Assembly (NCBI RefSeq): GCF_000186705.1
Contig: NZ_AEUE01000001.1
Location: 186,001 to 250,000 of the forward strand
DNA: 64,000 nucleotides
From: Citromicrobium sp. JLT1363
GTDB lineage: Bacteria; Pseudomonadota; Alphaproteobacteria; Sphingomonadales; Sphingomonadaceae
Direction: 5' to 3'
Part shown: positions 4,893 to 6,340 of the stretch, piece by piece
Position numbering within the stretch: position 1 is the first letter of the stretch
Layout of the letters: each line of letters starts with the position of its first letter
Position numbers and translations under genes: made by a program
The notes under the pieces: generated by a model
What the model was told of the DNA's origin: nothing
The model's input: the letters and a program-made list of their open reading frames with translations, nothing else
Database searches by the model: none

Positions 4893-5537
4893 ATGACCGA
4901 GCGCGCCACCCCCATCCGAAACGTCGTCTTCGATGTCGGCAATGTCATCGTCCGGTGGGAGCCGGAATCGATCGTCGAGCTCGCCTTCGGCAAGGACCTG
5001 CCCGACGGGATCACCAGCCAGGACCTGTTCGGCGGCGACATCTTCCGTGCGCTCAATCGCGGCGCGATGAGCCTCACCGAAACGCAGCGCATGTTCGGCG
5101 AACGCCACGGCTTCGACCGCAAGACCTGCGACCGGCTGGTCTCCGCGCTGTTCGAGAGCCTCCACCTGATCGAGGAAACGCCCCCGCTGATGCGCCGCCT
5201 CAAGGCGAGCGGCTACGGCATCTACGCGATTACGGACAACGTGCACGAAATCGTCGCCTACCTGCGCGGGCGCTACGACTTCTGGCCGCTGTTCGATGGC
5301 GCGTGCGTCTCCGCCGATCACTCCACGCTCAAACCCGATCCGCGCATGTATACCTGGCTGACCGAGACCTATGATCTGGTGCCGGAGGAATGCGTGTTCT
5401 TCGACGATCTGCAGAAGAATGTCGACGGCGCGAAGGCGGTGGGGATGGAAGCCTTTGTCTTCACCACCACCGCGCAGGCCGAGGCGGACCTCAAGAGCAT
5501 CGGCGTCGACCCGGATCGCGCACTCGAACCGGCATGA
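4893..5537 (+). CDS. HAD superfamily hydrolase (subfamily IA)
   Basis: Cytoplasmic haloacid-dehalogenase-fold hydrolase, likely a small-molecule phosphatase. The 214 residues show all four HAD motifs: motif I VFDVGNVIVRW at the N-terminus, motif II Thr/Asp in YAITDNV near residue 112, motif III Lys in TLKPDPRMY near 148, and motif IV FFDDLQKNVDGAKAVGM near 170. In motif I the second acidic residue of DxD is replaced by Gly, as in YihX-like proteins that begin FDLGNV, so catalytic competence is likely but unproven. Start ATG 4893 is preceded by GCGAGACCGC, a weak ribosome site. The stop overlaps the next gene's ATG by four bases (ATGA), indicating translational coupling. Substrate unknown. Confidence 0.88.
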   Translation: MTERATPIRNVVFDVGNVIVRWEPESIVELAFGKDLPDGITSQDLFGGDIFRALNRGAMSLTETQRMFGERHGFDRKTCDRLVSALFESLHLIEETPPLMRRLKASGYGIYAITDNVHEIVAYLRGRYDFWPLFDGACVSADHSTLKPDPRMYTWLTETYDLVPEECVFFDDLQKNVDGAKAVGMEAFVFTTTAQAEADLKSIGVDPDRALEPA

Positions 5538-5965
5538 GCGACGGCACCTCGGAATACGATTGGGCCTTTACCCGCGACTTCACCGCCGAGCCCGGCGACA
5601 TCGACGAGCTGGGCCATGTGAACAACGCGCGCTGGGTGAGCTGGATTCAGGACATCGCGGTCGCCCACTGGCACGCGGTCGCGCCCGAAGAGCATCAGGC
5701 AAGATACATCTGGGTCGTGAGCCGACACGAGATCGACTATCGCGGCAACATCAAGGCCGGCGAGACCGCCCACGGCCGCACCCGCGTATCGGGGAGCCCG
5801 CGCGGCGCGCGCTTCGACCGCGAGGTGCAGTTCGTCGATGGCGAGGGCAAGGTGCTGGTCTCCGCGCTGACCCGCTGGGCAATGCTCGACCGCGAGACCA
5901 TGCGCCCGCAGCGCATCACGAGCGAGATCGCGGCGCCTTTCCTTCGCCCGTCACCCCGGGCTTGA
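5534..5965 (+). CDS. Acyl-CoA thioesterase, 4HBT hotdog-fold family
   Basis: A 143-aa single hotdog-domain protein. The diagnostic DELGHVNNARWVSWIQD segment near residue 22 is the 4-hydroxybenzoyl-CoA thioesterase-type active-site helix with its catalytic Asp. It probably hydrolyses acyl-CoA or a related thioester; the substrate is not predictable. Start ATG 5534 overlaps the stop of the HAD gene (ATGA), so the pair forms a coupled operon. The last codons (Ser-Pro-Arg-Ala-stop) lie inside the 31-bp repeat at 5949-5979, meaning the native C-terminus was probably replaced when that repeat arrived. The convergent membrane-protein gene on the other side of the cassette ends with the same codons. 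Confidence 0.9.
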   Translation: MSDGTSEYDWAFTRDFTAEPGDIDELGHVNNARWVSWIQDIAVAHWHAVAPEEHQARYIWVVSRHEIDYRGNIKAGETAHGRTRVSGSPRGARFDREVQFVDGEGKVLVSALTRWAMLDRETMRPQRITSEIAAPFLRPSPRA

Positions 5966-5979
5966 CCCGGGGTCCCGCT
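5949..5979 (+). repeat. Left 31-bp inverted repeat of GIY-YIG cassette, REP-like hairpin
   Basis: Identical over 31 bp to the reverse complement of 6310-6340. It contains a self-palindrome, CCCCGGG-CTTGA-CCCGGGG, able to form a hairpin with a 7-bp stem and 5-base loop. It supplies the last four sense codons and the TGA of the upstream thioesterase gene. A degenerate copy sharing CCCGGGTCAAG lies near 17740. Confidence 0.95.
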
Positions 5980-5992
5980 GCTTTCGCGACCC

Positions 5993-6292
5993 TCAGACCA
6001 AAGAATCGAACAGATCATTCCACTTCACGTTGGCCTTCTCGACCAGCTCGATCTTCCAGCCCCGGTGCCAGCGCTTGAGCCGTTTCTCGTTCGCGATGGC
6101 ATCGACAATGCTGTCGAACCGTTCCGCCCAGACGAGCCGTTTCAATCCGTAGCGCGCGCAAAAGTCCGATCCGGCCCCTTCGCGGTGCTGCGACACCCTG
6201 AGCGCGAGATCCGCGGTCACGCCAACATACATCGTGCCGCGATAGCGGTCGGCCATGATGTAGACCCAGCCACCGGATGTTTCGTGATCCAT
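5993..6292 (-). CDS. GIY-YIG nuclease domain protein
   Basis: A 99-aa stand-alone GIY-YIG domain. The first motif is GWVYIMADRYRG, the second MYVGVT, then the conserved Arg in LALRVSQHREG and the metal-binding Glu in ANEKRLKRWHRGWK. All the catalytic positions expected of the family are present, so it may be an active endonuclease. ATG 6292 is the only start that keeps the whole domain; the upstream strand (CTTCCTTTCCTTGC) is pyrimidine-rich with no Shine-Dalgarno sequence, which is odd. The gene sits between perfect inverted repeats and has nothing else with it. Such proteins are often annotated as UvrC-like or hypothetical; a repair role is possible, but a link to the flanking repeats is the more interesting reading. 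Confidence 0.92.
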   Translation of the reverse strand: MDHETSGGWVYIMADRYRGTMYVGVTADLALRVSQHREGAGSDFCARYGLKRLVWAERFDSIVDAIANEKRLKRWHRGWKIELVEKANVKWNDLFDSLV

Positions 6293-6309
6293 GCAAGGAA
6301 AGGAAGAGA

Positions 6310-6340
6310 AGCGGGACCCCGGGTCAAGCCCGGGGTGACG
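6310..6340 (-). repeat. Right 31-bp inverted repeat of GIY-YIG cassette, REP-like hairpin
   Basis: Reverse complement of 5949-5979 with no mismatches. On the minus strand it encodes Ser-Pro-Arg-Ala-stop at the end of the membrane-protein gene 6324-6746, in the same frame used by the left copy for the thioesterase gene. Self-palindromic core as in the left copy. Confidence 0.95.

Follow-up and report, generated by a model that had tools for sequence, protein, structure and literature searches.

REPINs are paired REPs moved by RAYT transposases. In the REPtron, the gene of the RAYT, a Y1/HUH transposase, stands between REPs of the matching type, which carry a GTAG tag, and paired REPs are present elsewhere. 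A second kind of enzyme has reportedly been tied to short repeats: a 2025 paper is said to describe Ssn, a GIY-YIG family of site-specific single-strand nucleases acting on Neisseria repeats. The CGTC-tagged REPs are defined, in the passages of Di Nocera et al. 2013 (PMC3733652) drawn on here, by an unpaired CGTC tag at one end, a stem of 8-9 bp and a loop of 4-5 nt. According to the same passages of PMC3733652, they are chiefly alphaproteobacterial, frequently form dimers, lie mostly near the 3' ends of genes and are stated to be without association to transposase genes, while RAYT enzymes are described as repeat-specific. The hosts named in those passages are N. aromaticivorans, S. meliloti, A. 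lipoferum and the Neisseriae, whose CGTC-1 repeat is equated with dRS3, and a tail that is mostly CCA and A:T pairs at stem positions 1 and 2 are given as usual, not absolute, traits (PMC3733652). The term giy does not occur in the main text of that paper, and neither a literature search nor passages of PMC12306157, PMC5082802, PMC1564403 and PMC10745880 gave an account of GIY-YIG proteins together with REP elements.

The locus described here lies in a window of 64 kb, by which we mean the whole stretch of DNA analysed, and consists of a small GIY-YIG nuclease gene between two inverted CGTC-tagged hairpins. It is best read as a REPtron-like unit in which a GIY-YIG nuclease replaces the Y1 transposase and a CGTC tag is found instead of GTAG; as in the REPtron, the enzyme gene has matching REPs on either side, and paired REPs are found elsewhere. 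The window nuclease is like Ssn, as the latter is said to be, in that a small GIY-YIG protein with a Neisseria homologue is tied to a repeated palindrome. The window element would differ from Ssn, as the latter is said to be, in that its repeats are the terminal repeats of a discrete unit, in its cassette-free sites and in its REP pairs, all of which are known from sequence.

Anatomy of the cassette and its nuclease

The features of the locus, in window coordinates, are as follows.

5949..6340, no strand: whole cassette, CGTC-REP, GIY-YIG gene and inverted CGTC-REP, 392 bp; its ends are also read in clade members
5949..5979, + strand: left REP, with tag CGTC 5949-5952, stem 5953-5960, loop CTTGA 5961-5965, stem 5966-5973 and tail CCCGCT 5974-5979
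6310..6340, - strand: right REP, inverted copy of the left REP, with the CGTC tag outermost at 6337-6340
5993..6292, - strand: putative GIY-YIG nuclease gene, 99 aa, PF01541 at 41.7 bits
5534..5965, + strand: thioesterase-like gene (4HBT_2; Pfam search run from position 5537), TGA stop 5963-5965 inside the left REP loop
6324..6752, - strand: convergent ORF, hydrophobic by eye, with no match in Pfam, TGA stop 6324-6326 inside the right REP loop

The inverted arms (5949-5982 and 6307-6340; 34 nt, 97% complementary) are identical over their outer 31 bases, with a mismatch at base 32, and both copies have the layout CGTC-ACCCCGGG-CTTGA-CCCGGGGT-CCCGCT with CGTC outermost. The 34-mers have a predicted folding energy of -10.4 kcal/mol as single-stranded DNA (z about -3). 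Two occurrences of the core pattern are present in the window at 0 mismatches; by chance, even with 3 mismatches allowed, 0.25 occurrences are expected, and two were reached in 3 of 100 shuffles. In its CGTC tag, 8-bp stem and 5-nt loop, as well as in its frequent pairing and mainly alphaproteobacterial occurrence, the repeat fits the already published CGTC-tagged REP class, although its tail is CCC in place of the usual CCA and only the first stem pair is A:T, the second being C:G. The thioesterase-like protein ends in ...APFLRPSPRA* and the convergent ORF in ...PSTSPRA*, the stop of each being the TGA of a hairpin loop. The original prediction, namely 31-bp perfect inverted repeats with a hairpin enclosing an intact GIY-YIG gene and giving both neighbours the same SPRA ending, is borne out in all these parts. 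The gap between the REP and the start codon (6293-6309) is pyrimidine-rich, and by eye a Shine-Dalgarno sequence is not evident in it, nor in the corresponding gap of the clade-A relatives.

The ORF at 5993-6292 is intact, and the GIY-YIG domain is its sole Pfam match (41.7 bits against a cut-off of 22.6). Five residues, Y11, Y22, R32, E69 and N88, were invariant across 40 aligned sequences, and we take these to be the catalytic Tyr, Tyr, Arg, Glu and Asn of the GIY-YIG domain. The window protein is on these features a member of the GIY-YIG nuclease superfamily, and its clade is under constraint (median pN/pS 0.31; 105 pairs from 15 clade members). A sequence-profile search gave two relatives of solved structure and no others, the UPF0213 proteins PDB 1zg2 (E 1.8e-10) and 1ywl (E 2.1e-6). 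NCBIfam returned no family for the window protein, and 20 of 40 family members matched TIGR01453 (group I intron endonuclease), with a best E of 2.2e-5. Two other identities are disfavoured, a phage origin by a tblastn search of 50,697 phage records that gave no match at E 1e-5, and a known anti-phage defence gene by the lack of any match in PADLOC.

Linkage of the gene to its own type of hairpin

The association of gene and repeat was assessed at 141 loci, comprising 32 from this genome and its close relatives (best 30 in the match list), 80 named loci from genome contigs (best 80 of 583) and 29 from 192 sampled genomes of the class (30 obtained, with that of this genome left out). Of the 141 loci, 91 had a tagged hairpin within 130 bp of the gene, 58 of them on both sides, and at 50 neither side had a strict tagged hairpin within that distance, whereas control windows shifted along the same loci contained one in 21 of 908 cases; the shifted-window controls and the shuffles of the tree analysis below were computed on unmerged loci, which are not mutually independent. 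When loci with homologous flanks were merged, 76 of 121 sites had a hairpin. Near-identical copies among the loci are the pairs L130/L167 and L043/L121. With a stricter hairpin pattern, density at 109 loci was 3.14 per kb up to 170 bp from the gene as compared with 0.076 per kb beyond 500 bp, a difference of about 41-fold. By the stricter pattern, 55 of 107 loci were positive (43/78 in the named set, 12/29 in the class sample), 2 of the 109 loci having been set aside for short flanks, although both are kept in the density figure. In a test independent of the tag, the two 200-bp flanks had in common a mismatch-free inverted repeat of 14 nt or longer at 59 of these 107 loci, as compared with 1 of 482 controls. 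In the linked hairpins, the CGTC tag is outermost relative to the gene. The linkage, for which a search of this and related genomes had been suggested, is general (91/141 loci against 21/908 controls).

We also noted some loci of unusual make-up. At the Mesorhizobium loci L113, L115, L126, L128 and L141, no tagged hairpin was detected, yet inverted repeats of other kinds, 18-45 nt long, are common to the two flanks. At L041 (genome G057, contig C5), two GIY-YIG copies with identical match scores lie about 580 bp apart within a long array of CTTGA-type REPs. Another GIY-YIG gene in a genus member (G001:C2:398557-398817) is enclosed by two inverted repeats of the window type but with a CTTGT loop, CCCCGGA-CTTGT-TCCGGGG, located at 398496-398514 and 398853-398871.

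The type of hairpin is specific to the gene. The two hairpins of one gene had a mean identity of 0.90 (58 loci) as compared with 0.52 between genes, and loop length was equal on both sides at 57 of the 58 loci. On a protein tree of 90 rows, which stand for those of the 141 loci where a hairpin is present and loop lengths agree, 11 changes of loop length (4 or 5) are required, whereas shuffling gave a mean of 29.7 and in 500 rounds never so few; this clustering is an association and not a cause, since few columns and many open forks underlie the tree and near-copies aid clustering. Residue 71, two past the conserved E69, was Ala only with 4-nt loops (30 of 30 among the matches listed), a lead that is confounded with descent because there are too few independent changes on supported branches. 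This genome itself has three small GIY-YIG genes, which adjoin three different hairpins; besides the window gene, one has a ATCCCAGC-GAAA hairpin on one side and the other has ATCCCCGC-GAAG and a variant of it on both sides. A second small GIY-YIG gene of this genome (L004, G000:C24:202311-202586) contains an in-frame TAG, and at the same locus in four congeners (L033, L034, L035 and L037) the gene has no internal stop.

These data bear on a passive explanation, in which the REPs accumulate between genes as terminators or stabilisers of mRNA and the nuclease gene stands between two of them by chance placement. The REPs of this class are mostly near gene 3' ends, according to the passages of PMC3733652 cited above, and the two neighbours in the window are convergent, as such a view would have it. 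The roughly 41-fold local enrichment, the matching hairpins on the two sides and the clustering of loop type on the protein tree argue against it, and on the local density, the inverted repeats of the flanks and the excess over shifted windows we rejected passive terminator clustering as very improbable.

Copies of the repeat are also present away from the gene. The 3.1-Mb genome contains 19 copies with up to 2 mismatches, and a reversed control pattern gave 0; thousands of copies without association to GIY-YIG genes, which had been named beforehand as the outcome speaking against the proposal, were not found, the 19 copies being tied to GIY-YIG genes. Of the 17 copies outside the cassette, 11 are paired with an inverted, outward-tagged mate, each pair spanning 83-88 bp in all; these 11 form 10 pairs, two of them being each other's mates. 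The mates are mostly of another loop type and mostly have a like CCCGCT tail, and of the remaining copies 4 have no mate and 2 are unreadable. The 83-88-bp outward-tagged pairs resemble the REPINs of RAYTs. Four of the repeats (L006, L007, L008 and L018, among repeats L006-L024) have as mate ACCCCCGC, with a 4-nt loop, a near-match to the flank of the C24 nuclease gene. A third REP type, CCCAGC-GAAR, was found in 22 of 60 genomes, with two copies in this genome.

At the level of whole genomes, at least one REP copy of two types was present in 38 of 40 genomes with a gene match as compared with 8 of 20 without (p=6e-6; 60 genomes including this one), the two patterns missing some hairpin types. 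Likewise, among 192 class genomes, a gene match was found in 20 of the 26 that carry the ATGGCCGGG-CTTGW repeat and in 49 of the 166 that lack it (p=9e-6); both tests ignore shared ancestry, and their gene-present sets include weak matches. Some REP-rich genomes have no gene match (G044, 69; G026, 49, 85% complete; G137, 58; G125, 23). A rare palindrome, searched in the 192 genomes, has 4 copies in the genome of its own gene, two of them being cassette ends, and occurs in four other genomes, among them G138 with six copies and no gene match. The genus members G001, G003, G007 and G009 have 9-22 repeats of the window type and no cassette at the two sites examined.

CGTC hairpins adjoin homologues in records of Novosphingobium aromaticivorans, Sinorhizobium meliloti and Azospirillum lipoferum, all three named as hosts in PMC3733652, and of Sphingobium; in that of Photobacterium, the nearest CGTC repeat starts 191 bp downstream of the homologue. 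Together with the gonococcal record below, these are six of the 33 records with a match in a plasmid collection. A homologue of N. gonorrhoeae (L198, NZ_CP119140) is 44% identical and lies within a CGTC repeat array, with 18 matches to the CGTC-1 tag and first arm in 3.3 kb, where 0.04 are expected. This record, 2.17 Mb in size, is probably a chromosome, although it is held in the plasmid collection.

Unit boundaries and sites with and without the cassette

The ends of the unit were examined in 16 clade-A loci at 14 distinct sites (L027, L031 and L082 left out by choice). The upstream REP gave a mean identity of 0.52-0.68 and the bins past its CGTC end one of 0.25-0.31, a drop of homology to background. 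The downstream ungapped profile was weak, with 0.29-0.39 over the initial 40 nt and about 0.25 farther out, because the spacing varies there. Pairwise DNA alignments of several clade members extended about 48 nt beyond the gene on each side and stopped at the outer ends. The terminal inverted repeats bound a homologous unit, as in insertion sequences, with a profile that is clear upstream and weak downstream.

We found both cassette-bearing and cassette-free states at three loci. The first is the thioesterase locus of the window, whose gene is present in 10 of 10 genomes of the genus. In 8 of these 10, the gene stops 1-7 residues past the conserved APF and the stop is free of a REP; the reading frame of the other two, the window genome and G006, continues into a REP. 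Decay of the unit is seen in G006, which retains only remnants of the nuclease gene there, and in G002 a fragment of a nuclease gene and a single REP lie about 390-520 bp beyond the thioesterase site. The comparison called for at this locus gave a natural stop in 8/10 genomes, which in the window genome is replaced by the stop of the repeat, and cassette-free sites sharing the same C-terminus and repeat, which would have spoken against a mobile unit, were not what the eight congeners displayed. At the second locus, the metZ-gdh site (named by the look of the translated neighbours), 2 of 10 genomes, G005 and G008, have a cassette; in G004 and G006 the neighbours are separated by no more than short gaps, a lone REP-like sequence was seen by eye in G002, and the other five genomes, including that of the window, have another stretch of sequence.

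The third locus is the fnrL-fixJ site (annotation names) of Sphingobium megaplasmids, where 7 records match the filled query over its full length, 4 of them aligned, and 5 aligned records are without a cassette (L204, L205, L206, L207 and L211). In the place of the cassette, L205 (plasmid AP027328) has one perfect hybrid palindrome, CGTC-ACCCCGGG-TCAAG-CCCGGGGT-GACG, made of the left end of the left REP and the right end of the right REP; L204 has a mutated form of it, and L206, L207 and L211 have none. The hybrid palindrome can be an excision scar, a product of slippage between the 8-bp direct copies or a pre-insertion target. No clear target-site duplication was found: at the plasmid site, the 8-bp ACCCCGGG belongs to the palindrome itself, and at the window site none was seen by eye. 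A plasmid copy of the cassette gene, L210 (AP027340), contains a one-base frameshift.

One possible explanation for these sites is that the gene is a homing-type invader, in which the REP palindrome would be the target and the gene would copy itself into solitary palindromes via double-strand-break repair. The single palindrome of L205, where relatives have REP-gene-REP, looks as if entry had occurred between arm and loop; 20 of 40 family members match the intron endonuclease model TIGR01453, and GIY-YIG domains occur in homing endonucleases, as a passage of PMC1564403 states. Deletion between two REPs would yield the same hybrid palindrome equally well, and the readable repeats of this genome mostly consist of one tag and an inner tail and are paired (11/19), so that they resemble gene-less cassettes and not uninterrupted targets. 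We regard homing as improbable.

Another explanation, to which we give more weight while still considering it unlikely, is that the nuclease is an Ssn-like regulator that cuts single-stranded DNA at the repeats and so controls DNA uptake or recombination, the gene being kept beside its own targets while the repeats spread otherwise, for example by recombination or replication slippage. Ssn is said to be just such a site-specific single-strand GIY-YIG nuclease tied to Neisseria repeats, and the gonococcal homologue amid its CGTC-1 matches is in accordance with this. A regulator of this type leaves unexplained that clade-A homology at different sites ends at the outer CGTC ends and that REP-gene-REP units are present or absent at the same site.

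A candidate mobiliser of CGTC REPs

We lean towards the hypothesis that the cassette is a minimal autonomous REP element, in which the nuclease gene has its cognate CGTC-REPs as terminal inverted repeats. The nuclease would most likely recognise its hairpin together with the CGTC tag, in DNA that is single-stranded or extruded, and would cut there. Host repair or replication may then copy the REP-bounded unit to new intergenic sites, and the gene-less paired REPs may be copied likewise, in trans. The new sites would often be at gene ends, the loop TGA being able to serve as a stop codon. The original prediction of a mobile nuclease-plus-hairpin unit with portable stops holds as regards a single unit, from its boundaries and the three loci with both states, and as regards a portable stop at the thioesterase gene; the recognition, cutting and nuclease-driven spread that complete it we infer. 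Its suggestion that a GIY-YIG nuclease in a RAYT-like role is new survives in reduced form, as a GIY-YIG nuclease acting on Neisseria repeats, Ssn, is reported to have been published. The repeat class, too, was already described in the passages of PMC3733652.

A broader proposal, which we put forward more tentatively, is that small GIY-YIG nucleases are the missing dedicated mobilisers of CGTC REPs. They would constitute a second class of bacterial REP elements, independent of Y1/HUH enzymes, with autonomous cassettes, fixed-size pairs moved in trans and a clade-specific reading of stem and loop. In 2013 the CGTC REPs were, as far as the passages of PMC3733652 go, without an enzyme explaining their spread, and the nuclease-and-hairpin cassette of about 390 bp is a concrete candidate. 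If this is true, REP mobility would be a convergent invention by two unrelated enzyme folds, and the cassettes would supply many natural enzyme-hairpin pairs for studies of hairpin recognition.
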